Assembly (NCBI GenBank): GCA_019054805.1
Contig: JAHQIY010000029.1
Coordinates: forward strand, 496,001-560,000
Source of the DNA: Brachionus manjavacas
Lineage: Eukaryota; Rotifera; Eurotatoria; Ploima; Brachionidae
Reading direction: 5' to 3'
DNA: 64,000 bases
In this document: one piece after another, positions 10,826 to 64,000 of the stretch
How positions within the stretch are numbered: position 1 is the stretch's first letter
How the letters are laid out: each line of letters starts with the position of its first letter
Program-made: the position numbers and the translations under genes
Notes under the pieces: model-generated
What the model saw: only the letters and a program-made list of their open reading frames with translations
The model's database searches: none
Told to the model about the DNA's origin: nothing

Positions 10826-10845
10826 ATTTTTTATCATTTGTTAGA

Positions 10846-31086: not shown

Positions 31087-31432
31087 TCTTAATTATTTTA
31101 AATGGTAAGTTATTCTATTGTATTTGTTCAATTATATCGGACTTACCTTTTATGTGATTCTAAAAGAATTTATGATTTTTCCATGATAAAAGCAGATAGA
31201 ATTTCAAAAATAAAATCATACTCAATTTTCGTCCTTAATACCGCTGAGATACTGCAGATCATTATTTGATCAAAACTCAAACAAAGTTTGATTTAAAATT
31301 TAAAAAATTCCATCAAGCTTAAATCAATTTCGGAAAAAAACGAAAATTCTTAAAGAACCACAGAAAAAGAAATTCCAATACAATTGAACAAATACAGAGA
31401 ACAGCTAACCAGAAAAAATAATTGAGACAGAG

Positions 31433-31512
31433 TTGTTTAAAAGTCACAGGTCTCTAGTCAAGTCCAAGTCCGGACTTTAAAAAAAAGTCCGGACTTGGAC
31501 TTTAATTTTAGT
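31433..31512. repeat. partial MITE / palindrome
   Basis: One CAGAGTTGTTTAAAAGTC end is followed by a perfect palindrome in which AAGTCCAAGTCCGGACTT faces itself across a short A-run (31462-31502). Same family as the neighbouring MITE; the second end is missing. Confidence 0.55.
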
Positions 31513-32264
31513 GACCAATAGTACCTAAAGAATAAGATAAAGATATCAAATTTCAAAAAAATGTGCCAAATATAAAAAGATCAAATTACAAAATTGGTGA
31601 AAACACAACTAAAATAACTAAAAACTAAAAGAAAATTAAATGTTTTTTTCGAAAAATTCGATTGTCCAAGGCCTTCTTGTTAAGTAAACCCTTGAATTTT
31701 CACTTTCATAATAGAGTTTTCCAAATTTTCCTTTTTTAACTGATCTTCCATTTGCCAAACCTGAACTCTTGTAAGTTCCAACGATGGGATCTTCATTTTA
31801 TTCCTGTAATAATTTATTATTTCCAATCAATTAAATTAAAATGAATAAGAATTTTGAAAAATTACCAAAAATAGATGTTTTTTGTCAGATAAATCATCAA
31901 ATTTTCTTTTACTTGGAAAATCTTCTTGTGCAATTGGTTTTTGAAATTCCTCTAAATAATAATTAAAATATTCAATTTAAAAAAGAAAAAAATAATACCT
32001 ATCTGACTGTTTAAAATAATAATTTCTTGATTTTTGTCATTCAATTCATTTGTTAGAGATGTTTTTTGAATTAAACAATTAGAAAACTTTTCCGGGTAGT
32101 TATTTAAATCATCTTTTAATGCAGATATTTTCCTTTCTAATTCATTTATTTCTTTTTTTTGACTTAAAATAGTTTTGTTTTTGTTCTCATTAGGAATGCT
32201 TAAAATAGAAAATAAAATAATTTTTTGGAATAAAAAAATTTTAGAAAAAATAACTCTTTCTAGT

Positions 32265-35200: not shown

Positions 35201-35323
35201 AAATGGCTTTAGATAAGTTCAATGGAATCGGCTGCTACAGCTCTACACGGCCAATTGGCGGTGATGGGCTTAGACAATCTACATGTTAGGTGTCGCAGCA
35301 AGAACTACTACTACAACTACTAC
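32265..35323 (+). mobile_element. CR1-like LINE, nearly intact, inside cargo gene B
   Basis: Non-LTR retrotransposon with endonuclease, RT and C-terminal domain almost full length, ending in an ACT-rich microsatellite tail (CTACTACTACAACTACTACT near 35308). It is visibly GC-richer than all other LINEs here and of a different family, closer to CR1-type elements of flatworms and other animals (inference from the protein style). It lies on the opposite strand to gene B and divides its second zinc-finger exon from the exons downstream. Confidence 0.85.
32322..35289 (+). pseudogene. CR1-like ORF2 (endonuclease-reverse transcriptase), three lesions
   Basis: 32322-32822: endonuclease with Y-T-N-A-x-S-L-N-N-K, S-E-T-W and V-V-C-G-D-F-N-F-P. 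The TGA at 32820 falls where the family has Trp (F-P-E-I-S-W), so it is a single nonsense change; the same frame goes on to 33686 with the linker. A one-base shift near 33660 leads to 33674-34228: RT with M-G-T-D-Q-V-H-P, S-P-I-Y-K-K-G, N-Y-R-P-V-S-L-T and D-F-S-K-A-F-D-T-V. A second one-base loss in the codon after L-E-D-F near 34222 leads to 34210-35289, with G-V-P-Q-G-S-V-L-G-P, catalytic Y-A-D-D-S and the C-terminal domain to a natural stop. Very recent decay. Confidence 0.85.
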
Positions 35324-35859
35324 TAACTACCAATTATGTAATGTTGGATTAATATTACCAAGCCCATTGCAACCAAGAACTCCACATTTAGTTGATTTGG
35401 TTGAATTAATAATTAAACCGTTTCTAAGGGAACAATCGGTAAGATTATTTTCAAAAACATCTTGACTAATTATTTTTAAAAAAAAATAATTTTTCCATTT
35501 AAATTAAAAAAAAATGCAACTTTTTCATTCAAGTAATGATATTCTTCTGTTGAAAGATTCAATCTCTATCTTTTGATTTGAGATAATAAATTCATCACTT
35601 TGGCTTAAAAAAAAAGAATTTCTAAAAAATGAAAATTATTCATTTATTTAAAAGCAGATAAATAAAAATTAAAAAAACCTCTTTTGTTCTAAATTGGAAA
35701 TCTTAATAAGGAGATCATTAGTAATTTTAACATTTGAGTCAGAAAGATCGATTAATTTTGAAGTTCGGATTTCGAATTCGTTTATCTGATTAAAATATTG
35801 ATTGGCAAGAATTTTATACTCTTGGCACTGCTTTTCAAGGCTAAAAAACTGCTGGTCAA

Positions 35860-36275
35860 GATCACCATTGTGCTTCTCAAGGCATCTCAAAATATGACTT
35901 GAAATTTTTTTTTTATTCTGAGAAAAACAAAATTTTATTTTAAAATACATTTCCTCATCAAATTTATGTTGGTCTTCCTTTAACTGGTCAGCAAGATTTT
36001 TTTGCAAATGTGCTAGATTAATCAATTTAATATTTTGATTTTTAAGATCATTGATTTCATTAATCTTGTCTTGAATCAATTTATCTCTAGAAAATTAAAT
36101 TTTTTATTTTATTAAATAAATTTAAAATAAGCTACTTTTGATCAAGATCACCATTGTGCTTCTCAAGGCATCTCAAATTATGACTTGAAATTTTTTTTTT
36201 ATTCTGAGAAAAACAAAATTTTATTTTAAAATACATTTCCTGTTTAAATTTATGTTGGTCTTCCTTTAACCTTTA
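35860..36275 (-). repeat. duplicated ~130-base exon segment in gene B
   Basis: The stretch at about 35858-35995 and that at 36138-36275 are almost identical (both carry GATCACCATTGTGCTTCTC, the same ATTCTGAGAAAAACAAAATT and a GGTCTTCCTTTAAC end). In the gene's frame they encode a coiled-coil segment. It is a local exon duplication, on a small scale the same process that built the array at 54.2-61.4 kb. Confidence 0.75.
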
Positions 36276-37363
36276 ACTGGGCAACTTCCTATTACACTAT
36301 GGCTTTTGTATTTGTTATTGTTATTTCCTTCGCTTTTACATATTTTTGCCAATGGACACTTTTTTTTTGACATCTTTCATATCTGTTATCTCCTTATTCA
36401 GGTTAAAATTATTTTGATTCAGAAATTCATTATCTCTCTGAAGTTTTATTGATTCGTTTTCTAGTTTTTCTATTTTTTTTGCAAAATTTTCCTCTCTTTT
36501 TGGTAAATTACATTTTTTAAAATTCTATTTATGAATTTACGTTTTTGTTTTCATTTTTTAACAGCTGAATTAGTTTACTTGAATTTTTCCCAAATCATTT
36601 TCGAGAATGCAATTTCGCTTAATTGGTTACTTAAATTAATTATTTCTGTTTCTTTTTTTTCAATCATGTTTTCAACAATAATGATTCTTGATTTTAAAGT
36701 TAAAGAATCGGGATCTTTGATTGGAATGATTTCTTCCTTCATTAAATTGTCAAACTCTATAATACTCCTTTCATTTAAAGGTGTTGATGAAAGAAATTCA
36801 TGCTTAAAATTTAATTTTAATAATATTTTATTTAATTATTAGTATTTAGAAACTTGTTTGTTGTCAGACTTATTATCCATAATTTTTTCAACAAAGCTAC
36901 CAAATGAATCAACAAAAGAGTTTTTCTTGATATATTCCCAATCTTTTCATATGAATTTTGCTTTTTTTAATAAAATTTCATAATTCAATCTATTTAAGAT
37001 AAAATAAAAGCCTACATTGTCTGGACAATCTTTTTGGTCATTAGAAATGGATTCAGAAAACAATTTTTCTCTGGATCACAGGCTTTTGGACTGTTTTCCT
37101 TTCTTTTAGGATTCCTCGAGTTCATTTTAAAATGTTTTTTTTTAATTTCTGACAACATAAACATTTTTTAAGTGTAAAATTGAATATTAGTAGATCATTT
37201 AATAATTTAGCTAAATTACAAGCTATGATACATTATCTGCAAAAATTAATTAAGAATTCGTTTAATAATTCATAAAAACATAAAAATTTTATTAAGTTTA
37301 TTATATCTAAAACTAATTTTTGCACAAATTGGGTAGAACTTAATTTTGAATTATTTTTTAAAT

Positions 37364-40300
37364 TCAATTTACACGTGCTATGAGATGAGTGAATAGAACA
37401 AATATATGAAATATCAAAAGTTTTCTCAATTTCAGAATTACAGACAAAACAATATGACTTTTTTGTTCAGAAAGTGAATTTCTAAATCCATCATCAAGCT
37501 CTAGAAAAATACTCTCACGAATATTATTCGGAAAAAACATCTCTTTTTCGTTTGAAATTGTCTCCAAAGCTAATATCTTAATAAAAAAACAAACAAATGC
37601 GCCACATGATTTTTGATCCGATTGTTTCACATGAATAAATGTTTTTAATTTCCAGATTGATTTATCTTGCTTAAAGCAATTTAAACCTCGAATAAATGAA
37701 CTTAAAGAAAATCATTTTTAGAAAAAGAAAATTTAAAAACAAATAGTCAAAAGTTATAATATTAGTTAAATTTAATGCTATTAAATTTTTATTCATTTTT
37801 AATTGCTGAAAAGTTATTTTAGTCGCAGTTTGATTTTTTAAAAATTTTAATATGTTTTTTAATTTTATCGATTCTTTCCAAAAAATTTAAAAAATTTTAT
37901 GTGAAGAATACTAATTACGAGATTTTTTGTATTTTTTTCTTTTTTCTGGTTTTAATAAAATATTTTTTGATTGAAATAATAAAAATTTTCTAAGAGATTA
38001 AATTATATTCTAATTCATAAAATAAAATTTAATTTTAATCTCATTATTAAAAAAGAATTTTGGAAATAAACTGTTAAATAACAGTTATTAAATTTTAAAC
38101 TTTTAAGATAACAATTACTTACATTTAAATCTTAAATATTTTCTAAATATCCTTTTTCATAAATTTGTGTAGCAGTAAAAAAATTAAAATAAAACATTTT
38201 TTTTTTGGCTTTTTTTAATTACTAAAAAAATGAAAGCATCAATTACCTAAAAATAGGAACATAATATTAAAAAATTAAAACAGCATGTTTCAACTTACTG
38301 AATCACTTAGACATTTTTTTTCTATTAAATCTTGTATTTGTTTTACAGTTACAATATAGCAGTCGATTTTATAAAAGGCACAATCCTCTAGATGGTATTA
38401 ATTATCAAGCAAGGAATTGTCTACAAATACTTTTTCATTATCTAAATTTTTAAATTAGATTTAGAAAGTGTCAAGTGTCAAAATTATTTTTAAATCACCA
38501 TTTCCGGTCGGATTTTCAAAAGTTTTATTAATGGTTTCCCCTGAAAAATCAAAGTCTGTATGTCCATTAAAGGATCTTATGCATGGTTCCTTTTTTGAAT
38601 TGGACGCTCTTTCTGGAAATTTCCACATTTCAACATCTTCTGGTGTGTGTTTAATTTTTTTAAAATTTTTAAAATTTTAATCAAAAATATCTTTGTATTT
38701 TTCAAATTTAATCTTTATGTAGTTAAATAAGGGAGCAGCGATTTCACTCGGAAAGCATCTCCGCTTTGTATTTATTCGCTTGTTTACGCAAAGTAGATCA
38801 TTTTTCAAATGACCGAACCACGTTTCTAATGAATTGTTTGAAAGCCGAGTGGTGTAATCCTCAAGACAATCATTTAACAATATACCAGTCCAAAAAGGCA
38901 TAATATACAGCCTTTTTCTAATAATATAGAAAATACTCGGGCAGTATAAATCGTTCTTTTCATATTCGATAAACAAAATTTCCTCATTAAAAATATTTTT
39001 TTCTTCATTTTTCAGTAAGGTATCAAAATATAAGGAAAATGGAGAATTTTTTTGAAAGCTTAAAATTTCTTGATCTTCAAAAAAAAATTCCAAATCAACC
39101 TTATTTTCTGATTTACTGACAGCAGAAAGTGAACTCAGCCATTCCAAATTCCGAATCTCTATTTTGATTTTTAGTTTTAAAAGGTATTTTCTCAAATTTT
39201 TACTTATAAATTTTCTATTATATATATTAAATAAAGCTACAAGAATCTCATTAAATTCAGTTAGTTTAACAGAATTTTGTAATAAAGAAAATCCAAAAAT
39301 AAAATCCCTATTGAAACTACTAATCTCAGATTTTTTCTTATTTTTTCGAAAATCATCATTTATATTTTTTAATAAATGAGTTGAACATAAATATATTCTA
39401 ACAGGAAATATATTTCTGAGCTCTTCCTTGTTATGAATCATTAAGTTGAATGCCCAATTCCGATAATGAATCGGCTTACAGTTATTAAATGCTGCTAGAA
39501 TTGCATTAATACTGGCCCATGAAAAATCAGTCACAACAACTTTTGGAAGTTTAAAAAAGCTATAGCATTTAAATTTGTTGACAATTATCTTTAAATAACA
39601 CTCGATCGATAAACTATCATAAGAACTGCTCAGAAAATCTGCAATTAGAAAATGGTCTCGTTTTTCTTTTTGTTCTGGTTATTTACTTTTAGCCATAATT
39701 GTAAAAAGAAGAATTCTATTTTGTCCCTGTAAATCAATCATTAATTTTCCGGTCGCATCAAAATGCCAAATCGGATTTTCTTTACTAAGAACTGCCCATA
39801 TTTTTACCTTTTTTAAATGCAGAAATTGTGTAAAAATATTTAAGTATATTGAAAGGATTATTTGTAATATTATCGGAATTTTAATTTTAAATATTAGATT
39901 AAATTTTTTTTAATTGCCATAGAATTAAAATAAAAATTTTCAATACCTGAAGTTCACTCAAAAAAATTAACCCAATTGGCAATTTATTGATTTCCTGTAA
40001 GTAGCCATTAATTCTATTCGTATTCTCACTCTTAAAACAACTATCATAAAGAAGTTTTGTAGCCTCTGAATCAATGATTAGGTTTTGCGAAATTTGAAAT
40101 CGATGGTTAAATTCACTTGTAATTTTTTTAAAAGTTTGAATTTGTTTTTGATCGAATTCCTAGTGACAAGTTAGTATTATTTAATAAAAAATCAATTAAT
40201 TGTCTTACTCTTTTCAATATATCTCGTTTCTGATTTGTAATTTGTAATGCCTTTGGCTTTTAATTCATAACAAAGTCTTAATCTTCTCTCACCAGTAATT

Positions 40301-40691
40301 TTAGATTTCCGTATTTCAACTGCAGAACTGTGTTCAATTGTTTGACTCCATTGTCCAAATCGGTCATAATTTCTTTCCATTCAGATTCCGATATGATAAA
40401 ATCAAAAAAATTGGCGTTTTGTCTTTCGCCATAATTTGAATCTTTCAAAATTCTTAATACACTTGTTCGATATGAATTTCGATTTTGTTCCCAATTTTTA
40501 CTTAAATAAAGTGCGTTTCCAATTGAAAATGGCTCTTTGAAAAATTCTTCAGCAAGTCTTCCCCAAATTCCTTGTTTGTTAGATAATTTCTCATTGACGT
40601 TCAAGTTACTTAATTTGTTGTGAACCATTAAATTTACGGTTGTTTTTATTAAATCGGTCCAATTGACATTTTTTCGTTCAATTTTTTCCAC
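37364..40691 (-). pseudogene. MULE-like DDE transposase with Ulp1 protease and RING-like tail
   Basis: Read on the minus strand. N-terminal region from 40691 (M-E-K-I-E-R-K) to about 40220 with a frameshift near 40300; exon 40159-39947; exon 39807-38677 with the catalytic core: W-H-F-D-A-T-G (first Asp), V-V-T-D-F-S-W-A-S (second Asp), L-C-S-T-H-L-L-K-N (the Cys..His of Mutator-type enzymes) and S-N-N-S-L-E-T-W-F-G (Glu). One TAA interrupts it at 39681-39679. Coding sequence continues past the stop at 38677 to about 38460. Further on, 38300-38400 and 37364-37660 give a Ulp1-type C-terminal protease (V-K-Q-S-D-Q-K-S-C-G-A-F-V-C, catalytic Cys), then, in another frame, C-F-V-C-N-S-E-I and C-S-I-H-S-S-H-S-T-C, half a RING. 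Together: transposition enzyme with a SUMO/ubiquitin-type protease. Broken copy. Confidence 0.7.
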
Positions 40692-40699
40692 TAAACAAA

Positions 40700-41690
40700 T
40701 AAATTATTATCATAATGATTAAAGTTATTAATTTTAGATAATAAACCTTTAATTTATTTTGTAATAAAATTTAGAATTAAAACTAAGTCAGCCAATTTAA
40801 TTAGCATTCTTATTTGCTAATAAGAAACAAAATAAATGAAAATACAAATTGATATGATTATTTTATTTAAAAAAATATTAATTTTTTTCTATAATTTTGA
40901 ATTCTTCTCCTCAAATCAAAGAAATCAACACGGAAATAATTCGGACTTTTTCGGAACCATCAATTCATCAATAGTAACTGATGATCAACAAATAATCAGA
41001 ACTTATCACATCTAAATCAGATATCAATCAGATCTTTTTTGATTAGGCTTTTATTTTTGTCTTTTTTGATCTGGTAAAATTTTAAGTTGGTAAATCATCA
41101 TCATTGCTCAATAATGACAAAAAAAAACGATTATCTCAAATTTTATAAATCGAGGGTTGTCAAGCAAATTTCAGAAAGAACAGGTAGCTGTTAGACAAAC
41201 GAGAGCTGTCTGGTCGAACACTCGACTTTAATTTTTGATGGTTGGTTCCTGCTCAAAAAAAGTCAATTAGTATCAAAAAGGTTTTAAATAAAACTTTATC
41301 TTGGTCGTCCTACTTTAAATTTGAATAATTTAATTTTTTTCTGCATGGTTTGGATGAAACAGTATAGGAAAACCCAATTGAAAGTTTAGCCAATTTAAAT
41401 TTTACTAACTCGAAAATTTTTCGAAAAATTCATGATTTACAATAGGATCATTTAATTAAGAAAACATTTATTAAATTCTTAGAGAATATGAAAGGAAATT
41501 ATTGCAAAACTAACTTCTTTTAATATTGATTTAAAGATCAATATTTTTTATTTTTATTTATTTTTAAAAATTTTACAAAATATTCTATGATAAATTATGA
41601 ATTTTTTTTTAAATAAATTTTTTTACAAACTTTTAAAAGATCGTTAAAAAATTTTGCTTTGCTTTAATTTTTTTTGCCCCAAACTTCACC
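40700..41690. other. right subterminal region of the transposon
   Basis: No gene recognised. It presumably includes the promoter of the transposase gene, whose start lies at 40691, but no clear element can be pointed out in the A/T-rich sequence. Ends in the inverted repeat at 41671-41695. Confidence 0.5.
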
Positions 41691-41703
41691 GCCGCTCCAA
41701 TTT

Positions 41704-43188: not shown

Positions 43189-43439
43189 ATATCCAACTCC
43201 ATTGTGTAATTGCTACCTAGTAATTTCTTCTTTTTTTTTCCTGAAACTTGAACTATTTAAACATGTGCCACATGTAAATAGAATCTTTTCCAATTTATGT
43301 CTTTTCAACTTTCATTTTTTTAGCTTATTTACTCTATTTTGATTCTTTTTTTTTTATCTAATTTTATTAACTTTAATTTTATTTTTATTTAATTTTTTTA
43401 TTTTATTTTTAACTTATTCTGAAGGAGCTTTAGCTCGGT

Positions 43440-43690
43440 ACAGAAAACAAATAAATAAAATAAATAAAAATAGCGTGTGCTGCTTGCAGTTAGGACTAAA
43501 CTAAACTTAAAAGAGGACTAAAGAGAAAAATAAAGAGATGTCAATACTGGGGTCTTAACACAAGGATGTGAAATCAACAAAAAATTTTAAAAAAATTTCT
43601 GATAAATCCATTCTTAAATATTTATTTATTTAATTTAATTAAAACCTAAGGTCGTATGACGTTTGTAAAGTATGTAAACATTTGCCACAT
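43440..43690. repeat. LINE 3' flank, master copy of a segment repeated at 46.4 and 51.1 kb
   Basis: About 230 bases after the LINE tail (GCGTGTGCTGCTTGCAGTTA onward) lead into the last ~60 bases of the RHS pseudogene. The same segment is joined to LINE 3' ends at 46410-46667 and 51085-51350 with only a few base changes. Only here does it continue into the rest of the RHS gene, so this is the parental arrangement. Confidence 0.8.
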
Positions 43691-44950
43691 GTAACAATCT
43701 GTGCATTTGAACAGCACTTGAAAAGCCCTGAATTTCCAATTGCATGGATTAAAAGAGCCCATTGATGATAAAATGCCAAAATGAGCTGCAAATATTCCCA
43801 AGGCAATTGTTATTCCAACGCCAGCTGCTAAACTAACGTCAAAAGCTGCCGAAATGACTGCTGCACCGGCACAAAAGCCAAATGGAAGAAAGAGGCCAGT
43901 TAGGGCACCAAAAAATAAGCCTAAATAAAGATTCGCATTCTCCCATTCCCATTCTAAAGGATTCCAAGTATCCATTGACGCAGATGCGCCTAAATAAGAA
44001 CCAACAACTACAAAACCTAGGAAGACAACAAATGCTAAATTTCCATCCGGATCGTACATGCATACTGGCGAATTGCCAGCATATTTGTACGGCGATGCGT
44101 ACTGTTCTTTGGCATTCACTTGATAAAAGCGTCCAATAGTTGGATCATAAAATCTGGCATGATAATTGTATAAGCCAAGCTCTTCGTCCCATTCTTGTCC
44201 TGTAAATCGGTACCTGATATGAGATGATTCACCTAAGCCCAAGTTCCTAATAACATTACATATTTTTTACCACTAAACGCACTGACTGCTCATGGTCTGT
44301 GATCACATTATAAAATTCATTGTCTCTTATAAAACCGCACAAACCCTTTGGTCCATAAACATAAGCTGTAGAAAATTCGTTCTCAATTTCTTGTTGTTTG
44401 CTAAAAGTGATCTCTTTTTCAACCAGACATCGTCCACTTTTGTCTCTAAAGTACATTATCTCACGTAATTTTTATTCTCATGTCTAAAACACATTTGTAC
44501 ACTCGCTCGTTCATCGAGTCATAAGCCAAGTGAACTTGAGTTCCGTTTTTGAGCACAAATTTAACAGCTCTATTAGATATTTCATCATAAACAATTTTTT
44601 CTATTTGCCTATGCTCGGCCTTAGTCACATTGCCAAGTGAGTCATATTCAAATCGATTCACATTCAGTTTGGGTGTAGCAGTCGTTGGACTGAAGCCACC
44701 GCTGAAAAGTTTGAGCAAACGATTCGCGAGTGATGACTTTTCGCCTAATGACTCCATCTTGAAGCAAATAGATAAGCTTTTTCAGTAGAGAAATCGGATA
44801 GCCCGATGCTTGCAAGAGATTTCTGAGAGGTTCTTGATCAATCCATTCTAAAGTGTTCACCTTGCCAAACTTACTCTGTCCACTAATGCACTCAGGTCTA
44901 ATGCATTCGCTTTCAACCAACGCCTTCCAAATTAGCTTACTTTTTTCCAC
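43646..44950 (-). pseudogene. RHS/YD-repeat core protein remnant
   Basis: Minus strand. Pieces in order: 44950-44760 (unassigned), 44757-44461 (F-E-Y-D-S-L-G-N-V-T, a YD-type repeat), 44456-44256 (I-M-Y-F-R-D-K-S-G-R, V-Y-G-P-K-G-L), and 44242-43646 with the RHS core signature: Y-R-F-T-G-Q-E-W-D, then G-L-Y-N-Y-H-A-R-F-Y-D-P and G-R-F. After the core comes a hydrophobic, glycine-rich C-terminal domain with at least two membrane-type segments, in the position where bacterial RHS proteins carry variable effectors. Frameshifts near 44760, 44460 and 44250. RHS cores with one glycine-rich tail occur in some invertebrates, probably after transfer from bacteria. Dead copy or a gene with unrecognised introns. 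Confidence 0.7.
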
Positions 44951-46157: not shown

Positions 46158-46409
46158 ATATCTAACTCCATTGTGTAATTGCTACCTAGTAATTTCTTCT
46201 TTTTTTTTCCTGAAACTTGAACTATTTAAACATGTGCCACATGTAAATAGAATCTTTTCCAATTTATGTCTTTTCAACTTTCATTTTTTTAGCTTATTTA
46301 CTCTATTTTGATTCTTTTTTTTTTTATCTAATTTTATTAACTTTAATTTTATTTTTATTTTTTTATTTTATTTTTAACTTATTCTGAAGGAGCTCTAGCT
46401 CGGTACAGA

Positions 46410-46840
46410 AAACAAATAAATAAAATAAATAAAAATAGCGTGTGCTGCTTGCAGTTAGGACTAAACTAAACTTAAAAGAGGACTAAAGAGAAAAATAAAG
46501 AGATGTCAATACTGGGGTCTTAACACAAGGATGTGAAATCAACAAAAAATTTTAAAAAAATTTCTGATAAATCCATTCTTAAATATTTATTTATTTAATT
46601 TAATTAAAACCTAAGGTCGTATGACGTTTGTAAAGTATGTAAACATTTGCCACATGTAACAATCTGTGTCTTCTAAACTTTCATTTTTTTTTTAGCTTAT
46701 TTACTTTATTTTGATTTTTTTTTCATTTTATTAACTTTAATTTTATTTTTGATTTTTATTTTGATTTTGATTTTTTTAATTTTTTTCTGAAGGAGCCCTA
46801 GCTTGGTACAGAAAACAGAAAAAAAAAAAATAAAAAAAAA
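46410..46840 (+). repeat. copied LINE flank joined to a second LINE 3' end
   Basis: 46410-46667 repeats the 43440-43690 flank including the RHS gene tail (complement of V-I-R-P-stop). At 46668 it switches to another LINE 3' UTR (TCTTCTAAACTTTC), ending in CTGAAGGAGCCCTAGCTTGG and an A-rich tail near 46840. The switch point is the same as in the copy at 51350. Confidence 0.8.
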
Positions 46841-50439: not shown

Positions 50440-51035
50440 AAGACCTCAATCTAAATAATAATCAATCATCTATTTACGGATTTATAAATATCGTGGTCTA
50501 GTTGATTCGATAAAGTTTGTTGCCTCCAAAAAAAATTAAATTTTTTTAATCTTTTTAATTTATAAAATGACCTCCTTGAAATCGATTTACTTAAAAAATT
50601 GTATTTCTTTCATATTAAATTAAATTAGTTTTGGTTTAATTTTTTGTGTTTGAATTACAAAATGTATCCAATGTTGAAATAACATTGAAAAAGTAATTTC
50701 AAGTTAATATTGCCAGCATTTTCATATTCGAAATTAAACTTGATAGTGAGATAGAACAAGTTTAGTTTTTATTAAAAAATAAAAAAAAAAATATATTAAA
50801 ATTTTTCGTGTTCGGTAGTTCATCTTAAACACTTTAATTGTGGTTCGTTTAATGTATTTTAACAAAAACTGAATTTTAAATATGTATATTGGTATTGTGG
50901 ATTTTAAATGCGGAATTAAATTTCATTGCATGTTTAGTAATTGCAATCCTTCTTCATGATTTGAAAAAAAGCTTTGAAATATAAAAAAAATTTAAACAAA
51001 ATTTTCTAAAAAAAAACATATTAATTTTATTTTTA
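50440..51035. other. AT-rich intergenic DNA
   Basis: No gene recognised. A short piece (AAGTTAATATTGCCAGCAT at 50701) resembles 15601-15620, perhaps an old dispersed repeat. Confidence 0.35.
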
Positions 51036-51445
51036 TTTTATTTTTTTATTTTATTTTTAACTTATTCTGAAGGAGCTTTAGCTCGGTACAGAAAACAAAT
51101 AAATAAAATAAATAAAAATAGCGTGTGCTGCTTGCAATTAGGACTAAACTAAACTTAAAAGAGGACTAAAGAGAAAAATAAAGAGATGTCAATACTGGGG
51201 TCTTAACACAAGGATGTGAAATCAACAAAAAATTTTAAAAAAATTTCTGATAAATCCATTCTTAAATATTTATTTATTTAATTTAATTAAAACCTAAGGT
51301 CGTATGACGTTTGTTAAGTATGTAAACATTTGCCACATGTAACAATCTGTGTCTTCTAAACTTTCATTTTTTTTTTAGCTTATTTACTTTATTTTGATTT
51401 TTTTTTCATTTTATTAACTTTAATTTTATTTTTTATTTTGATTTT
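51036..51445 (+). repeat. third copy of the LINE 3' end plus flank
   Basis: It starts in the LINE T-rich 3' UTR, passes the CTGAAGGAGCTTTAGCTCGG box and tail, continues through the flank and RHS gene tail to 51350, then switches to the second LINE 3' UTR exactly as in the copy at 46668. It breaks off near 51445, before the second LINE's terminal box. Confidence 0.8.
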
Positions 51446-51474
51446 ATTTTGAAGTTCAAAAATACATTAATTGT

Positions 51475-52599: not shown

Positions 52600-53290
52600 C
52601 ACAACATTTTGATTGTACTAAGGGCTGCTCCAAGTCAAATTTTAATATTTTAAAAATTTAAACCAAATTTTAAAAAATGAATTTCAATACACGATGCTTG
52701 TCAATTATTTGGAGTGAATTAATTTAAAGCTTTTCTATTTGAAAAATATTTTTTTGGTCTCATGCTAATCATATTTAAAAACAAAAATTTAAGTATGGTA
52801 CAACGAGATCAACATTCTTCAATTCACTATGAATTTAAATATTATATTATCAAAAATTTTTATTAAATTATAATTTTTAAATTGGAAAAATAAATAAAAA
52901 AATAAAAATATTCTTAAAAAATTTATTTATTTTGAAATAATTCTTATCATTTTCTCACGAAAATCTGAAATGAATATTTAAGAAGTAATTAAATAATCCG
53001 ACATTATGGATCAGCATTCCTAGAATCTCCAGCTTTTTCAATCTCTTCCTAAAAAAACGAAAATGGTAAATAATATCTTATAACCTTGATGGTTATGCAT
53101 ATCATTAATTGATCAAAATATTTAACACTTCCTTTTTTTGAAAGAAAATGAAAAAGCTTTTGACTGATTCTAGGAAAAGGAGGGTTCATGCCGAATTATA
53201 TTAAAAACTTCTTCTATATTCATATCAAATTTTCGTTTAAAATGATAAGAAAAATTTCAAATTAAAAAATACAAAACAATAAAAATATAA
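52600..53290. other. AT-rich intergenic DNA downstream of the giant gene
   Basis: No coding sequence recognised. If the giant gene belongs to a transposon like the one at 30416, the left end of that transposon should lie around here or a little below, but no GCGGCGGTGAAG-like end was found. Confidence 0.4.
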
Positions 53291-53294
53291 AAAT

Positions 53295-56200
53295 TTAATC
53301 CGAAAAAAACTCTATGCACGATTCAGCCCGACGTGTAATGTATACTCGATTCTTTCCGGAGGTTTCATAATAAAATCCGCCTCTTTTCCCCTTAAATACA
53401 ATACTTCCATTTGCTGAACCGTTGCTTAGATAAGTTCCGACAGGATCGTCTTTGTTTTCGTTTTTTAAAACTAAATCTTTATTTAAACGGGAATAATTTA
53501 ATTAAAAAAAAATTAAATTAATTATACCATTATTAGTTTTAGCTCTCTTTTCGGATGATTCTAGATTTAATTTTAAATCTTTAATTGAGGTATTTTTTTC
53601 CATAATTTCTTCCTGTAATTGGAACATTGTAAACTTCATCTCAGCTTTTAAATGAATATTAATCAAGATAATTAAATAATTAAATTTCCATACTTAATTC
53701 ATTTTTTAAATTTTCATTTAAATTTTGCAAATCGTCATAATCCTGCCTGAGTTCAGTTAGTTGTCTCTGATTCTGATTTTCGTATCCAATTTTTTTATTT
53801 GATGGATTAAATGGACAATAACGGCCACTATTTTTTTAATTTAAATATGTTAAATTTTAATTATTATTAAAAAATAACCTTATATGCCTCTTTTTCTTAG
53901 GATCAATATGACCTTTTCCCCCACAAAACTTAAATGGACAATTCGTTTTTTTCATTCCGTAGAAACGTATTGAACTATCGCCTTCAAAATTTAGATCGAT
54001 GAATTGTTTTTTAAAACAGGTTAATTCTTTCGATCTAAAATAAATAAAAATATAATAATAAGAAGTATTAAAAATATAAATACTTTTTATCTAAAAATGA
54101 GTTTTCAATACCAAGAACAACTATTTTTTCTCCATCATCTTTCTAAAAAAAAATTATTAAGGAAAAAAGATTTCAAAAAAATTACATTTCATCCTGAAGT
54201 TGAATCTTCACAATTTCCTGCCTACTTAGTTCAAGTTTATTTTCTTCAGCAATACCGTTAAGTTTTTCGTTCAGACTTTGCCTTTAGAATTAAAGAAAAA
54301 TTTTTTTGATTTTTAAATATTTTTTATTCTTACACTTCATCCTCTAGATGAGCTTTAGCTGCGTCACACTTGCTGAGTTTTTCGGCCATATTTTCTCTTC
54401 AAAAAATTTAAATTAATATTTTAATTAATTTTTCTGTATCACTTACTTTTCTTCAGTAGATTTTTCTTTTTCTTCGGAAAAAGCATTTAAATTTCTCTTT
54501 AGGCTTTTACTTATATTATAAGAAAAATTTCTATATAAATTCATTTGTATCATTTTTAAATCTTACAGTTCAACTTCTAGATCTTTTTTCTTTACTTCAT
54601 TGCTGTTGAATATTTTAGACAATTTTTCACTTTAAAAAAAAATAAATTAATTTAATTTAAGACAAATTTTTCGATCGTACTTTTGCGCATTTAATTTTTT
54701 ATTTTCTTCAGCAATACCGTTAAGTTTTTCGTTCAGACTTTGCCTTGAGAATTAAAGAAAAATTTTTTTGATTATTAAATATTTTTTTATTCTTACACTT
54801 CATCCTCTAGATGAGCTTTAGCTGCGTCACACTTGCTGAGTTTTTCGGCCATATTTTCTCTTCAAAAAATTTAAATTAATATTTTAATTAATTTTTCTGT
54901 ATCACTTACTTTTCTTCAGTAGATTTTTCTTTTTCTTCGGAAAAAGCATTTAAATTTCTCTTTAGGCTTTTACTTATATTATAAGAAAAAATTCTATATA
55001 AATTCATTTGTATCATTTTTAAATCTTACAGTTCAACTTCTAGATCTTTTTTCTTTACTTCATTGCTGTTGAATATTTTAGACAATTCGAAAAATTTGTT
55101 TTAAATTAAATTAATATTTCTTAAATTAAATTAATAAATTTTTCGATCGTACTTTTGCGCATTTAATTTTTTATTTTCTTCAGCAATACCGTTAAGTTTT
55201 TCGTTCAGACTTTGCCTTTAGAATTAAAGAAAAATTTTTTTGATTATTAAATATTTTTTTATTCTTACACTTCATCCTCTAGATGAGCTTTAGCTGCGTC
55301 ACACTTGCTGAGTTTTTCGGCCATATTTTCTCTTCAAAAAATTTAAATTAATATTTTAATTAATTTTTCTGTATCACTTACTTTTCTTCAGTAGATTTTT
55401 CTTTTTCTTCGGAAAAAGCATTTAAATTTCTCTTTAGGCTTTTACTTATATTATAAGAAAAAATTCTATATAAATTCATTTGTATCATTTTTAAATCTTA
55501 CAGTTCAACTTCTAGATCTTTTTTCTTTACTTCATTGCTGTTGAATATTTTAGACAATTTTTCACTTTAAAAAAAATATATTAAATTAATTTAAGACAAA
55601 TTTTTCGATCGTACTTTTGCGCATTTAATTTTTTATTTTCTTCAGCAATACCGTTAAGTTTTTCGTTCAGACTTTGCCTTTAGAATTAAAGAAAAATTTT
55701 TTTGATTATTAAATATTTTTTTATTCTTACACTTCATCCTCTAGATGAGCTTTAGCTGCGTCACACTTGCTGAGTTTTTCGGCCATATTTTCTCTTCAAA
55801 AAATTTAAATTAATATTTTAATTAATTTTTCTGTATCACTTACTTTTCTTCAGTAGATTTTTCTTTTTCTTCGGAAAAAGCATTTAAATTTCTCTTTAGG
55901 CTTTTACTTATATTATAAGAAAAAATTCTATATAAATTCATTTGTATCATTTTTAAATCTTACAGTTCAACTTCTAGATCTTTTTTCTTTACTTCATTGC
56001 TGTTGAATATTTTAGACAATTTTTCACTTTAAAAAAAATATATTAAATTAATTTAAGACAAATTTTTCGATCGTACTTTTGCGCATTTAATTTTTTATTT
56101 TCTTCAGCAATACCGTTAAGTTTTTCGTTCAGACTTTGCCTTTAGAATTAAAGAAAAATTTTTTTGATTATTAAATATTTTTTTATTCTTACACTTCATC

Positions 56201-59200
56201 CTCTAGATGAGCTTTAGCTGCGTCACACTTGCTGAGTTTTTCGGCCATATTTTCTCTTCAAAAAATTTAAATTAATATTTTAATTAATTTTTCTGTATCA
56301 CTTACTTTTCTTCAGTAGATTTTTCTTTTTCTTCGGAAAAAGCATTTAAATTTCTCTTTAGGCTTTTACTTATATTATAAGAAAAAATTCTATATAAATT
56401 CATTTGTATCATTTTTAAATCTTACAGTTCAACTTCTAGATCTTTTTCTTTACTTCATTGCTGTTGAATATTTTAGACAATTTTTCACTTTAAAAAAAAT
56501 ATATTAAATTAATTTAAGACAAATTTTTCGATCGTACTTTTGCGCATTTAATTTTTTATTTTCTTCAGCAATACCGTTAAGTTTTTCGTTCAGACTTTGC
56601 CTTTAGAATTAAAGAAAAATTTTTTTGATTATTAAATATTTTTTATTCTTACACTTCATCCTCTAGATGAGCTTTAGCTGCGTCACACTTGCTGAGTTTT
56701 TCGGCCATATTTTCTCTTCAAAAAATTTAAATTAATATTTTAATTAATTTTTCTGTATCACTTACTTTTCTTCAGTAGATTTTTCTTTTTCTTCGGAAAA
56801 AGCATTTAAATTTCTCTTTAGGCTTTTACTTATATTATAAGAAAAATTTCTATATAAATTCATTTGTATCATTTTTAAATCTTACAGTTCAACTTCTAGA
56901 TCTTTTTCTTTACTTCATTGCTGTTGAATATTTTAGACAATTTTTCACTTTAAAAAAAATATATTAAATTAATTTAAGACAAATTTTTCGATCGTACTTT
57001 TGCGCATTTAATTTTTTATTTTCTTCAGCAATACCGTTAAGTTTTTCGTTCAGACTTTGCCTTTAGAATTAAAGAAAAATTTTTTTGATTATTAAATATT
57101 TTTTATTCTTACACTTCATCCTCTAGATGAGCTTTAGCTGCGTCACACTTGCTGAGTTTTTCGGCCATATTTTCTCTTCAAAAAATTTAAATTAATATTT
57201 TAATTAATTTTTCTGTATCACTTACTTTTCTTCAGTAGATTTTTCTTTTTCTTCGGAAAAAGCATTTAAATTTCTCTTTAGGCTTTTACTTATATTATAA
57301 GAAAAAATTCTATATAAATTCATTTGTATCATTTTTAAATCTTACAGTTCAACTTCTAGATCTTTTTCTTTACTTCATTGCTGTTGAATATTTTAGACAA
57401 TTTTTCACTTTAAAAAAATATATTAAATTAATTTAAGACAAATTTTTCGATCGTACTTTTGCGCATTTAATTTTTTATTTTCTTCAGCAATACCGTTAAG
57501 TTTTTCGTTCAGACTTTGCCTTTAGAATTAAAGAAAAATTTTTTTGATTATTAAATATTTTTTTATTCTTACACTTCATCCTCTAGATGAGCTTTAGCTG
57601 CGTCACACTTGCTGAGTTTTTCGGCCATATTTTCTCTTCAAAAAATTTAAATTAATATTTTAATTAATTTTTCTGTATCACTTACTTTTCTTCAGTAGAT
57701 TTTTCTTTTTCTTCGGAAAAAGCATTTAAATTTCTCTTTAGGCTTTTACTTATATTATAAGAAAAAATTCTATATAAATTCATTTGTATCATTTTTAAAT
57801 CTTACAGTTCAACTTCTAGATCTTTTTCTTTACTTCATTGCTGTTGAATATTTTAGACAATTTTTCACTTTAAAAAAAATATATTAATTTAATTTAAGAC
57901 AAATTTTTCGATCGTACTTTTGCGCATTTAATTTTTTATTTTCTTCAGCAATACCGTTAAGTTTTTCGTTCAGACTTTGCCTTTAGAATTAAAGAAAAAT
58001 TTTTTTGATTATTAAATATTTTTTTATTCTTACACTTCATCCTCTAGATGAGCTTTAGCTGCGTCACACTTGCTGAGTTTTTCGGCCATATTTTCTCTTC
58101 AAAAAATTTAAATTAATATTTTAATTAATTTTTCTGTATCACTTACTTTTCTTCAGTAGATTTTTCTTTTTCTTCGGAAAAAGCATTTAAATTTCTCTTT
58201 AGGCTTTTACTTATATTATAAGAAAAAATTCTATATAAATTCATTTGTATCATTTTTAAATCTTACAGTTCAACTTCTAGATCTTTTTTCTTTACTTCAT
58301 TGCTGTTGAATATTTTAGACAATTTTTCACTTTAAAAAAAATATATTAAATTAATTTAAGACAAATTTTTCGATCGTACTTTTGCGCATTTAATTTTTTA
58401 TTTTCTTCAGCAATACCGTTAAGTTTTTCGTTCAGACTTTGCCTTTAGAATTAAAGAAAAATTTTTTTGATTATTAAATATTTTTTTATTCTTACACTTC
58501 ATCCTCTAGATGAGCTTTAGCTGCGTCACACTTGCTGAGTTTTTCGGCCATATTTTCTCTTCAAAAAATTTAAATTAATATTTTAATTAATTTTTCTGTA
58601 TCACTTACTTTTCTTCAGTAGATTTTTCTTTTTCTTCGGAAAAAGCATTTAAATTTCCCTTTAGGCTTTTTCTTATATTATAAGAAAAAATTCTTAATAA
58701 ATTCATTTGTATCATTTTTAAATCTTACAGTTCAACTTCTAGATCTTTTTTCTTTACTTCATTGCTGTTGAATATTTTAGACAATTTTTCACTTTAAAAA
58801 AAATATATTAAATTAATTTAAGACAAATTTTTCGATCGTACTTTTGCGCATTTAATTTTTTATTTTCTTCAGCAATACCGTTAAGTTTTTCGTTCAGACT
58901 TTGCCTTTAGAATTAAAGAAAAATTTTTTTGATTATTAAATATTTTTTTATTCTTACACTTCATCCTCTAGATGAGCTTTAGCTGCGTCACACTTGCTGA
59001 GTTTTTCGGCCATATTTTCTCTTCAAAAAATTTAAATTAATATTTTAATTAATTTTTCTGTATCACTTACTTTTCTTCAGTAGATTTTTCTTTTTCTTCG
59101 GAAAAAGCATTTAAATTTCTCTTTAGGCTTTTACTTATATTATAAGAAAAAATTCTATATAAATTCATTTGTATCATTTTTAAATCTTACAGTTCAACTT

Positions 59201-62200
59201 CTAGATCTTTTTTCTTTACTTCATTGCTGTTGAATATTTTAGACAATTTTTCACTTTAAAAAAAATATATTAAATTAATTTAAGACAAATTTTTCGATCG
59301 TACTTTTGCGCATTTAATTTTTTATTTTCTTCAGCAATACCGTTAAGTTTTTCGTTCAGACTTTGCCTTGAGAATTAAAGAAAAATTTTTTTGATTATTA
59401 AATATTTTTTTATTCTTACACTTCATCCTCTAGATGAGCTTTAGCTGCGTCACACTTGCTGAGTTTTTCGGCCATATTTTCTCTTCAAAAAATTTAAATT
59501 AATATTTTAATTAATTTTTCTGTATCACTTACTTTTCTTCAGTAGATTTTTCTTTTTCTTCGGAAAAAGCATTTAAATTTCTCTTTAGGCTTTTACTTAT
59601 ATTATAAGAAAAAATTCTATATAAATTCATTTGTATCATTTTTAAATCTTACAGTTCAACTTCTAGATCTTTTTCTTTACTTCATTGCTGTTGAATATTT
59701 TAGACAATTTTTCACTTTAAAAAAAATATATTAAATTAATTTAAGACAAATTTTTCGATCGTACTTTTGCGCATTTAATTTTTTATTTTCTTCAGCAATA
59801 CCGTTAAGTTTTTCGTTCAGACTTTGCCTTTAGAATTAAAGAAAATTTTTTTGATTATTAAATATTTTTTTATTCTTACACTTCATCCTCTAGATGAGCT
59901 TTAGCTGCGTCACACTTGCTGAGTTTTTCGGCCATATTTTCTCTTCAAAAAATTTAAATTAATATTTTAATTAATTTTTCTGTATCACTTACTTTTCTTC
60001 AGTAGATTTTTCTTTTTCTTCGGAAAAAGCATTTAAATTTCTCTTTAGGCTTTTACTTATATTATAAGAAAAAATTCTATATAAATTCATTTGTATCATT
60101 TTTAAATCTTACAGTTCAACTTCTAGATCTTTTTTCTTTACTTCATTGCTGTTGAATATTTTAGACAATTTTTCACTTTAAAAAAAATATATTAAATTAA
60201 TTTAAGACAAATTTTTCGATCGTACTTTTGCGCATTTAATTTTTTATTTTCTTCAGCAATACCGTTAAGTTTTTCGTTCAGACTTTGCCTTTAGAATTAA
60301 AGAAAAATTTTTTTGATTATTAAATATTTTTTTATTCTTACACTTCATCCTCTAGATGAGCTTTAGCTGCGTCACACTTGCTGAGTTTTTCGGCCATATT
60401 TTCTCTTCAAAAAATTTAAATTAATATTTTAATTAATTTTTCTGTATCACTTACTTTTCTTCAGTAGATTTTTCTTTTTCTTCGGAAAAAGCATTTAAAT
60501 TTCTCTTTAGGCTTTTACTTATATTATAAGAAAAAATTCTATATAAATTCATTTGTATCATTTTTAAATCTTACAGTTCAACTTCTAGATCTTTTTTCTT
60601 TACTTCATTGCTGTTGAATATTTTAGACAATTTTTCACTTTAAAAAAAATATATTAAATTAATTTAAGACAAATTTTTCGATCGTACTTTTGCGCATTTA
60701 ATTTTTTATTTTCTTCAGCAATACCGTTAAGTTTTTCGTTCAGACTTTGCCTTTAGAATTAAAGAAAAATTTTTTTATTATTAAATATTTTTTTATTCTT
60801 ACACTTCATCCTCTAGATGAGCTTTAGCTGCGTCACACTTGCTGAGTTTTTCGGCCATATTTTCTCTTCAAAAAATTTAAATTAATATTTTAATTAATTT
60901 TTCTGTATCACTTACTTTTCTTCAGTAGATTTTTCTTTTTCTTCGGAAAAAGCATTTAAATTTCTCTTTAGGCTTTTACTTATATTATAAGAAAAAATTC
61001 TATATAAATTCATTTGTATCATTTTTAAATCTTACAGTTCAACTTCTAGATCTTTTTTCTTTACTTCATTGCTGTTGAATATTTTAGACAATTTTTCACT
61101 TTAAAAAAAATATATTAAATTAATTTAAGACAAATTTTTCGATCGTACTTTTGCGCATTTAATTTTTTATTTTCTTCAGCAATACCGTTAAGTTTTTCGT
61201 TCAGACTTTGCCTTTAGAATTAAAGAAAATTTTTTTGATTATTAAATATTTTTTTATTCTTACACTTCATCCTCTAGATGAGCTTTAGCTGCGTCACACT
61301 TGCTGAGTTTTTCGGCCATATTTTCTCTTCAAAAAATTTAAATTAATATTTTAATTAATTTTTCTGTATCACTTACTTTTCTTCAGTAGATTTTTCTTTT
61401 TCTTCGGAAAAAGCATTTAACTTTTCTTTTAGATCTTTTCTTTAGTATTTTAAGATATAAATTTTTCTGATTATTATACATTATTTTAATCTTACTCTTC
61501 AGCCTCAAAATGGGCTTTTAATGCCACGAGTTTTGCAGTCACATTTTCTCTTTTAAATATTTGTTAAATTTATTTTATTTTTACATAATCTGATATCCTT
61601 TTTTTAAAATTACTTTGCTTCTTTTAGCTCTTGGCCTTCTTCCCGTAAATTTTCAGTCGTCTCCATTAATCTTTTTCTTAAATAAAATATTTTCATTTGA
61701 GCAAAAAACAGTTCATTTTTTCTTTACATTTGAAATTCTTGAGAATGGTTATTCTTTGAAAGCTGGTCTAATATTTCTGATTTTTCAGAGTCAGTTTGAG
61801 AATATTTTCTGATTATTTCAAATTTCCTTTCAATAATATTAAATTTGTTTCTTTTTATTTGACTTAAAATTACTCGTTTAATATTTTGCTTTTCTGTATT
61901 AATTCCAGTTCTACTATTTCTTTTTCTTCTTTTTCTTTTTGAAATCTCATTTCGCTTGATTCAATTTTTAATTTTAAGCTTTCTTCTAACTTTAAATGTT
62001 CTTGAATCAGTCTTTGATTTTCTTCTTTTAGTTTTTCATTTTCTTCTCTTTGCTTGAAAAAATTTTAGGAGAAAAAATAGAAAATCTTTAAATAAATTCA
62101 AAAATCTAAACCTTATTAAAGAACGGACAGTTTTTGATTACAAAGTGTGATGATAAACCTCTTTTTACGTTTCCTTTGCCATTACATTCTTTAATTAGAG

Positions 62201-63200
62201 GACATGACCTGGTTGTTTTTTCTTTAAGTAATTCATTTTCTTGAATCAATTTCTCAACATCTCTTTTTAAAGACTGTATTGTGTAATCTTGCCTTTCTCT
62301 TTCTTTTTCTCCATCTCATTTCTAAAAATATACATTTTAATTTATTTCCAATATCAAAGTCAGTCGATTTTGTGATTCGTACTTTTGCCTTAAGTTTTCT
62401 TTTAATGCTTCATTTTCATTTTGAAGGATTTCCTCATTTAAAATACAATCAGTATAAAATTGTTTCCATTGATCAGTCTTTGATCTTAATGCAGCCTTTT
62501 AAGAAGATTAGATTTAATCATCGATGAAAAAAAAATTAAATACTCGTAAGTTATCAATCTCTGATTCCATATCACCATTATCATGATTCATAAGTGAAAC
62601 ATTTTGATTTTCGGAAAAGCTTCCGTTCAAAAGAGGAGTTGACGATTGAAAAATTACGTCGATCTAAATAAATTTAAAATATTGTTTATCAAATACTCAA
62701 AAATACTCACAGTATTTTGATCATCCCGCTTTTCAGCGACATTTTCAAAAACATTTTGCAAAAAATTGGAAATTCCATTTGAAATATTCTCAACTAGCTC
62801 AAATGATTTATTCTTAAGATAAAATTGTTTAAAATTTTAAAAACATAAATTTTAAAAAACAAACCACAAATGTCTCTATGTAAGAATCATCTAAACTATT
62901 TGAATGTATTTCTTCGCCAAAATCAAAGAATTGCTTGCATTCTTTTGGACTCTCCTTCACTTTGATACATTTTTTTGGTCCATCATCAATTTTCACTAGT
63001 TGAGATTCGACCAGATCGCTTTTTAGTGAGGATGAAATAACATATGTTTTAACAATAATTTTATCCTTTGATTCATTATTGAATTCATCTTTGGAATAAT
63101 TCTCATTGTCTGATCCATCCTTAATTTCAACGTATGGATCACATTTTGAATTTGATCTTTTTTTTAGGTTTTCGGACATTTTTGAATTTAAAATATTCAA
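53295..63200 (-). CDS. gene A: giant MYT1-finger coiled-coil protein with amplified 63-base exons
   Basis: Minus strand, starting at 63200 or more likely at the ATG at 63179 (M-S-E-N-L-K-K-R), and ending at the stop 53295-53297. In order: polar N-terminus with C-D-P; N-K-S-F-E-L-V-E-N-I; Q-S-S-T-P-L-L; coiled coils; a CCHHC-type finger at 62110-62210 (C-P-L-I-K-E-C ... H-F-V-I-K-N-C-P, first His replaced by Asn); more coiled coil; the 84-residue repeat array (54238-61420); a second finger at 53810-53945, C-P-F-K-F-C-G-G-K-G-H then H-I-S-G-R-Y-C-P across an intron, with exactly the MYT1 spacing C-x4-C-x4-H-x7-H-x5-C; coiled coil; and a C-terminal domain (53295-53470) with G-K-R-G-G-F-Y-Y and R-V-Y-I-T-R-R, resembling short basic RGG-YY adaptor domains. 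Paralogue of gene B in the 11.28-kb transposon. More than 1,300 residues of continuous coiled coil would make a rod of roughly 0.2 micrometre. Role unknown. Confidence 0.65.
54238..61420 (-). repeat. tandem array of ~462-base units, four 63-base exons each
   Basis: Sixteen near-identical units, spacing 457-470 bases. In the second unit, exons lie at 54681-54743, 54797-54859 and 54910-54972, each exactly 63 bases. Each exon has 1 base, 20 codons and 2 bases, bounded by GTAAG/GTACG donors and AAG acceptors with introns of about 50-57 bases. Four exon types alternate and encode an 84-residue repeat. Within each 21-residue block, residues 1, 4, 8, 11, 15 and 18 sit at heptad a/d positions (for example V, L, L, I, N, L in the type containing Q-S-L-N-E-K-L), so exon borders coincide with heptad borders. 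I count 16, 16, 16 and 15 copies of the four exon types; diverged relatives flank the array on both sides (54100-54237 and 61421-61560). Confidence 0.9.
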
Positions 63201-63505: not shown

Positions 63506-64000
63506 TTAAAAACAAATTGGACATGACTGATTTAATTCATAATTTTCAATACATGATTGGTGAAATTTATGAAAGCAATCACCTTTCACAATATTTTTAA
63601 ATGTTTTGATTTCTGAACCACATTTGGAACAGAAATTTTCACTAGAATTTTTTCTGAAGGTACGAATCATTTCAGAACGCAATTTTTGAAGTGAACTATT
63701 CAACGTATTGAAAAAGAGCGGTTTTCCCTCTACAAGACATTTTAGAAAGAAGCTCACAAATACCCCACAATTATTAGGATCATTTTGAAGTGAATGATCA
63801 CATTTTGCTTGTTTCCAATTTCTATTATTCAGTGATTCAACGGTAGAAGCAAATCTTCTTTAAAAAAATATATACAGATACATTTTAGATGAAAAACTGA
63901 CTTATACTTACTTCCAGTTTTCAAAAGATTTTTTCTGATTTTCTATTTTTTCTCCTAATGGATCAACATAGTAAAATTTACTTCCGTTTAATTCAATAAA
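63506..64000 (-). CDS. Ulp1-type cysteine protease with C-terminal RING finger (3' end of gene)
   Basis: Two exons within the window: 64000-63912 (running off the edge) and 63857-63506, with a 54-base GT..AG intron in phase 2. The first gives F-Y-Y-V-D-P-L-G, the Asp block of Ulp1/SENP-type peptidases. The second gives S-L-Q-N-D-P-N-N-C-G-V-F-V, the Gln and catalytic Cys, then a RING-H2-type finger at the end: C-S-K-C ... C-F-H-K-F-H-Q-S-C ... C-P-I-C-F-stop. These proteases remove SUMO or related modifiers, whereas RINGs recruit ubiquitin- or SUMO-conjugating enzymes, so the fusion pairs removal and attachment. The same order (Ulp1, then RING-like) ends the transposase gene at 37364, so a transposase probably lies just beyond the window. 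Confidence 0.75.

Follow-up and report, generated by a model that had tools for sequence, protein, structure and literature searches.

In the chicken BG genes of the butyrophilin family, the cytoplasmic tail is a presumed coiled coil encoded by 21-nucleotide (nt) heptad exons; the number of these exons is reported to range from 13 to 36 per gene in haplotype B12 and to change between haplotypes, and the introns can be read through (PMC4046983, PMC5938342). Similarly, the leucine-rich repeat (LRR) genes of Tetrahymena are described as holding tens of thousands of exons of exactly 90 bp with phase-2 introns, in arrays ascribed to unequal crossing-over, possibly with the participation of a long interspersed nuclear element (LINE)-like element, often adjacent (PMC6564038). 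Both systems come very close to the gene described here, which lies on the minus strand of a 64,000-nt stretch of the rotifer Brachionus manjavacas (contig JAHQIY010000029.1, positions 496,001 to 560,000; this whole stretch is called the window, and its own numbering is used below). The remark of a preliminary description of this DNA that no named family has such a layout therefore does not stand. On balance, we regard the gene as an accessory gene of an Ulp1-bearing DNA transposon family, encoding a coiled-coil rod with a C2HC finger at each end that would have grown stepwise.

The exon array is real. Tandem Repeats Finder places it on the minus strand at 54236–61429, with a period of 462, 15.6 copies and 98% matches. 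The parts of the array are the following:

54186–61439, minus strand: tandem exon array, 63 exon-like blocks, unit order E1-E2-E3-E4, 462-base period
61377–61439, minus strand: first E1 exon, a hybrid of 63 nt at the 5' edge of the array
54186–54281, minus strand: last E3 exon, a hybrid of 96 nt at the 3' edge of the array
56426–56487, 56886–56947, 57346–57407, 57806–57867 and 59653–59714, minus strand: E4 copies of 62 nt (starts, in reading order, 59714, 57867, 57407, 56947 and 56487)
55030–55087, minus strand: E4 copy without an AG acceptor, the preceding intron partly inverted

E1, E2 and E3 are each present 16 times and E4 15 times. The total of 63 blocks agrees with the first count, whereas the exact length of 63 nt that had been attributed to all of them is found, together with both splice dinucleotides (GT...AG), in 56 of the 63, or 56 of 62 when the E4 without acceptor is excluded. 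The non-standard blocks are five E4 copies of 62 nt, the acceptor-less E4 and the hybrid last E3. Nor are these 63 independent exons; only four different exons have been multiplied. E2 is identical in 16 of 16 copies and E3 in its 15 full copies, and an acceptor has been lost once across the whole array. The GT...AG introns between the array exons measure 49–57 nt (~50, 52–53, 50 and 57 nt for the four of each unit), and one aberrant stretch measures 65 nt. Mean introns of 118–392 bp are reported for Brachionus (PMC6555955), longer than those at this gene. The array exons are presumably spliced; when joined, they run in one common frame with phase-2 borders and 21 residues apiece, in agreement with the preliminary description.

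The earlier statements that the product is a coiled coil and that the exon borders share one heptad position are both borne out. Within the 84-residue unit, 15 of the 18 core hydrophobic residues (L, I, V, M, F) occupy a single a/d pair, a concentration equalled by none of 20,000 shuffles, and each 21-residue exon begins at the identical heptad position. The split codon lies in a core heptad position. Across all 16 exon orders, the joint residue is either a fixed V or L or else K/N, and never a stop; any order gives nearly the same joint residue because the next exon supplies the third base only. Retention of an intron leads to an immediate stop for three of the four introns. Because the exons are 63 nt long and the introns are in phase 2, gain, loss or skipping of any number of exons keeps both the frame and the heptad register. 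The tandem copying of frame- and register-neutral exons proposed earlier is supported, although nothing indicates that length is measured or variable, as the term 'molecular ruler' had suggested. With a coiled-coil rise of 0.1485 nm per residue, the computed length is ~12.5 nm for a unit and ~196 nm for 63 exons, and the protein is probably a dimeric, parallel rod. Two joined units had no PDB match at E 0.01, and the Pfam matches of the coil itself (YabA, 35.7 bits, cut-off 30; among 63 families) were set aside as generic coiled-coil similarity.

Around the array, a minus-strand gene can be read that begins with an ATG at 63179 and closes with a stop whose last base is 53295. Its domain order is exons A–D (N-terminal part and first coil), the Z1 finger, the coil of F-G-H-I, the array, J, a second finger, a coil and a basic C-terminal domain, with the joints matched by eye except for those computed from exon F through the array. 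The exons outside the array are the following:

62383–63179, minus strand: exons A–D, with the start codon, the N-terminal part and the first coil
62112–62321, minus strand: exon Z1, first C2HC (MYT1-like) finger (PF01530, E 2.2e-4; PDB 2mf8, E 2.9e-4)
61728–62052, minus strand: upstream coil exons F and G (179 and 99 nt)
61614–61676, minus strand: relic exon H, 63 nt, weakly E1-like
61496–61549, minus strand: relic exon I, 54 nt, E2-like
54084–54142, minus strand: exon J, out of frame with the last E3 as cut
53694–54034, minus strand: two exons, with the second C2HC finger split by an intron (PF01530, E 1.8e-4; PDB 2cs8, E 6.4e-6)
53528–53644, minus strand: exon M, coil
53295–53476, minus strand: last exon, PBCV_basic_adap-like C-terminal domain, 59% identical over 51 residues to that of a paralogue

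The frame does not match at two joints outside the array, from D to Z1 and from the last E3 to J; an alternative donor within the last E3, seen by eye, would mend the latter. Exons A–D had no Pfam match better than E 0.03. The best PDB matches of the fingers are MYT1 (2mf8) and the KIAA0535 protein (2cs8), which we take to be MYT1L, and the C, C, H and C ligand positions are kept in both alignments. These C2HC-like fingers may bind zinc and DNA. The last exon scores 20.4 and 20.2 bits against PBCV_basic_adap (PF08789) for two cuts, with a cut-off of 20.4, and the C-terminal domain of the paralogue had no PF08789 match. The preliminary description had overlooked the finger at each end of the protein, its conserved C-terminal domain, the transposon-borne paralogue and the defective exon copies.

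The association of the array gene itself with a transposon is likely. This is because a paralogue lies inside a bounded DNA transposon elsewhere in the window and Ulp1-like open reading frames (ORFs) stand beside both genes, which makes the array gene probably a transposon accessory gene. The relevant features are the following:

30416–41695: bounded DNA transposon of 11,280 bases holding the paralogue, with terminal inverted repeats (TIRs) of ~50 bp and an 8-bp target-site duplication (TSD), TCCAATTT, inserted in a non-long-terminal-repeat (non-LTR) element
31636–36839, minus strand: paralogue of the array gene, 5' limit uncertain, split by a reverse-transcriptase element at ~32271–35289
37367–37711, minus strand: Ulp1-like ORF of the transposon (PF02902, E 5.9e-4, 20.2 bits, cut-off 20.7)
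38680–40703, minus strand: transposase-like ORFs, with D, D, CxxH and E motifs by eye
63509–63859, minus strand: ORF neighbouring the array gene, with Ulp1 (Peptidase_C48)-like and RING-like matches, none of which reaches its Pfam cut-off

The string GCGGCGGTGAAGTTTGG is found at 30416 and 41695 in inverted orientation, inside TIRs with 81% identity, and the direct repeat flanks both ends; the TSD is best read as 8 bp, the exact shared string being 10 bases, in part a chance match. On either side of the transposon lies one half of a reverse-transcriptase element that has an uninterrupted relative at 8845–10764, whose alignments to the left and right flanks overlap by 9 bases, as a TSD predicts. 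The result is a nest of three levels, in which a reverse-transcriptase element sits in the DNA transposon and the transposon in a non-LTR element. All contents of the transposon (the transposase-like ORFs, the Ulp1-like ORF and the coiled-coil gene) are on the minus strand; the D, D, CxxH and E residues are presumably transposase motifs. At both loci, the Ulp1-like ORF is directly upstream of the coiled-coil gene in the same order and orientation, and the Ulp1/RING-like gene upstream of the array gene seems to continue beyond the window end (64000). Over 50 codons of the C-terminal domain, the proportions of synonymous and nonsynonymous differences between paralogue and array gene (pS 0.89, pN 0.31) point to protein-level constraint since the two genes split.

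Inside the paralogue there is a 132-base direct repeat, 96% identical (35853–35984 and 36139–36270), and the array-gene family thus seems prone to internal duplication. Large imperfect palindromes lie directly downstream of both coiled-coil genes, at 31036–31478 (74% self-complementary) and 52923–53269 (72%); they were considered as shared ends and rejected, their longest mutual match being 23 bases.

How the array grew can be read in part from the likeness of its exons. In exon sequence, E1 is similar to E3 and E2 to E4 (0/500 codon shuffles each), and the introns matching these two pairs are also alike (0 and 1 of 500 shuffles). At the protein level, the same two pairs stand out in heptad-keeping shuffles (P 0.03 and 0.04), unlike the remaining four. 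As these are the strongest pairs, the four-exon unit probably arose by the doubling of a two-exon, 42-residue module. Further pairs are above chance among the exon DNA (E2-E3, 1/500; E3-E4, 12/500) and the introns (per 500 shuffles, I23-I34 2, I34-I41 3, I12-I23 12 and I12-I41 26), so all four exons may derive from a single one. Upstream, exon I resembles E2 (0/500; E4 6/500, E3 17/500), and exon H is weakly E1-like in DNA (7/500), with no resemblance above chance at the protein level. H and I may thus represent an older, diverged module, and the 54 nt of exon I mean that the 63-nt rule is not absolute.

Variation among the units was counted by eye in 15 aligned units, excluding columns that vary only in unit 14. 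Variable columns are 3 of 252 in exons and 10 of 210 in introns (P 0.025, or 0.043 if two adjacent columns are one event), and for substitutions alone 2 of 252 and 5 of 210 (P 0.25). The units differ too little for selection within the array to be tested properly; their near identity points to recent homogenisation, as the preliminary description also concluded, and unequal exchange is the presumed multiplying process. In the course that we propose, the two-exon module would have been doubled into an 84-residue, 12-heptad unit, and unequal exchange would then have multiplied this four-exon unit ~16 times. With exons of 63 nt bounded by phase-2 introns, addition, loss or skipping would be tolerated in frame and register, and the product would be a long coiled-coil rod, flanked on both sides by a MYT1-like C2HC finger and ending in a conserved basic C-terminal domain.

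All five of the 62-nt E4 copies (5 of 15) differ by one base in the length of a run of A. The first of them in reading order brings a stop, and when the exons are joined from exon F as assembled, with the acceptor-less E4 excluded, this stop falls at residue 463, in the fourth unit. Dropping the five 62-nt exons together with the acceptor-less E4 leaves the frame open to the array end, so all six could be skipped in splicing. Of the five 62-nt copies, four sit in adjacent units (121 of 3003 placements, P 0.04). The acceptor of the E4 at 55087–55030 is missing because intron 3 of unit 14 is a partly inverted copy: its reverse-complement score is 28 against a shuffle mean of 13 (0/500 as high), and its forward alignment scores 29, the 5' part being kept. 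The 62-nt copies could be sequencing errors or true damage.

Several of these observations weigh against a working, transposon-borne gene. In the assembled sequence, five E4 copies and the D-Z1 and last E3-J joints disrupt the frame, so the array gene may be dead. Blaming assembly for the 62-nt copies is not safe, since homopolymer indels are rare in the window's other repeats, for which three overlapping comparisons gave 2 of them, beside 2 indels of other kinds and 36 substitutions. The PF01530 scores of the two fingers are at best 21.7 and 21.9 bits, with a cut-off of 32.3. Both Ulp1 matches and the RING matches are below the Pfam cut-offs, and comparison of one locus with the other gives a Ulp1 match over only 28 residues. 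Further, the element of the array gene itself has its far end outside the window, which ends inside the Ulp1/RING-like gene, so this element has to be inferred; a scan for the TIR of the bounded transposon, allowing 7 mismatches, found a single site apart from the two known ends, at 49828, with 7 mismatches and in the wrong orientation. For the transposase-like ORFs, Pfam yielded no transposase family, nor did NCBIfam for two of them, with no Mutator-like element (MULE) match, and the AlphaFold model of the largest, with a predicted local distance difference test (pLDDT) score of 36, is too poor to be of use.

The strongest alternative is a dead or dying gene, the array being in effect a satellite whose tandem copies spread for want of any counter-selection and whose exon features were inherited from a few originals. 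This is possible, if doubtful, and is compatible with the transposon reading. It would account for the frame-shifted E4 copies and their clustering, the lost acceptor and the two joints out of frame, and the paralogue is likewise split, by an insertion. The identity of E2 and E3 throughout their full copies, the loss of one acceptor array-wide and a frame that is open through the array once the damaged E4 exons are left out argue against it. An assembly artefact in the unit number or the homopolymer lengths is unlikely. Near-identical 462-base units over 7 kb are difficult to assemble, and all five 62-nt breaks are a single base in a run of A; however, some variants are common to neighbouring units (though others to distant ones), hybrid exons stand at both array edges, and the rarity of homopolymer indels noted above is also against it.

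We judge it equally improbable that the array belongs to a host structural coiled-coil gene with adaptive length, as in chicken BG, of which the transposon paralogue would be a captured copy. The exon logic is the same as in BG, the C-terminal domain is under protein-level constraint, and the exons vary less than the introns among units. Against this reading, the last difference disappears when substitutions alone are considered, the scanned pieces, unlike BG, yielded no match to an Ig or transmembrane family, and the array gene and its paralogue each have a Ulp1-like neighbour, placed in the same order. That the tandem exons are used singly by mutually exclusive splicing, in the manner of Dscam, rather than joined, has very little probability: tandem exons of near-equal length and in frame would suit it, and tandem arrays are described for Dscam, but choice among the copies gives little diversity because they are nearly identical. 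We therefore retain the accessory gene of a Ulp1-bearing transposon as the preferred reading.

A more specific role can be imagined, though we hold it to be a long shot. The gene product would be an element-borne, length-adjustable dimeric rod of up to ~200 nm whose C2HC fingers, being sequence-specific, bridge or space the element ends in transposition; unequal exchange would tune the unit number to element size, and neutral exons with skipping of damaged copies would make the array self-buffering. The MYT1 core is reported as AAGTT (PMC9307810). An AAGTT in the TIR of the element was rejected as evidence of a finger target, with ~0.09 sites expected by chance in 24 bp and, by eye, the two preferred purines before the core not both present.

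The window has a guanine-plus-cytosine (GC) content of 23–37% in 2-kb steps, and 25–31% GC is reported for monogonont rotifer genomes (PMC11954553). It contains many non-LTR elements, and it gave no Rfam match at the gathering score and no tRNA. A FLYWCH zinc-finger ORF (10816–11490, plus strand, E 1.9e-14) adjoins a reverse-transcriptase element, and ORFs like the Rhs/YD-repeat core (43646–44781, minus strand; by eye, with a weak RHS_repeat match, E 0.012) lie among retroelements. Dispersed repeats 98–99% identical occur at 43373–43703, 46335–46770 and 51019–51452, the first two adjoining truncated reverse-transcriptase elements. Relatives of the 84-residue unit were not found in viral_contigs (10 candidate stretches) or genome_contigs (81), all candidates failing the tblastn check, and viral_contigs held none of the transposase-like ORF (138 candidates) or the C-terminal exon (16 candidates). 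As both collections are of viruses and prokaryotes, the negatives say little about animals.

Among the known systems, the transposon at 30416–41695 resembles the Ulp1-bearing Mutator-like and Ginger1 elements as a DNA transposon with TIRs, a TSD and a Ulp1-like ORF, Ulp1 domains having been reported in Mutator and Ginger1 transposons (PMC2836005). It differs from them in its TSD of apparently 8 bp, the lack of a match to any transposase family and the extra coiled-coil/finger gene; further, Ginger1 carries Ulp1 inside the transposase protein. The TSD of Mutator is usually 9–11 bp. The Terminons of bdelloid rotifers are described as giant elements with accessory ORFs, some of them with coiled-coil motifs (PMC6431247). 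They are similar in carrying accessory coiled-coil ORFs, but Terminons are retroelements at telomeres, not TIR elements. The fingers of the MYT1 family have the same C, C, H, C spacing, whereas here single fingers below the Pfam cut-off stand at the two ends of a rod. Fibrillar collagen has equal exons of 54 bp that hold whole protein repeats and can change in number in frame; its product is a triple helix and not built from heptads. Among the titles and abstract openings listed in a literature search of limited reach, no transposon-borne heptad-exon array was found described, nor were the three-heptad exon, near-identical four-exon units, a finger-rod-finger protein or the link to a transposon.

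Like the Tetrahymena LRR genes, as reported, the array has tandem exons that are, here for the most part, of one exact length, and phase-2 introns. Those genes encode leucine-rich repeats in 90-bp exons of a ciliate, whereas the array encodes a heptad coil in 63-nt exons, and the long ORFs of the window are open in the standard code. No LRR domain was among the 25 listed of the 63 Pfam families matched by two units, with PF10473 (CENP-F coil, 'leucine-rich repeats') a weak match. The likeness to chicken BG, as far as that system is described in the sources cited above, consists of a coil made from tandem whole-heptad exons, one intron phase and a codon split at each border. In comparison, BG exons are 21 nt long (a few 18 or 24) and form 57 sequence groups, whereas those of the array are 63 nt long in near-identical four-exon units, and the BG codon is split into 1+2 bases outside the hydrophobic core, whereas that of the array (phase 2, 2+1) is split inside it. 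BG also has immunoglobulin variable (Ig-V) and transmembrane exons; for the array gene no Ig-V or transmembrane Pfam match was obtained in the scanned pieces, including A–D, with G, H, I, J and M not scanned on their own and no transmembrane predictor used.

The association with a Ulp1 transposon suggests mobile elements as a place where heptad-exon arrays can originate and as a means by which they can be carried. Units so nearly identical also offer a natural test of the rate at which exon arrays change within a species. With its equal-length, in-phase exons of whole-heptad multiples, the array looks like an independent solution of the BG type, which suggests convergent use of intron phase for coiled coils that can be safely extended.

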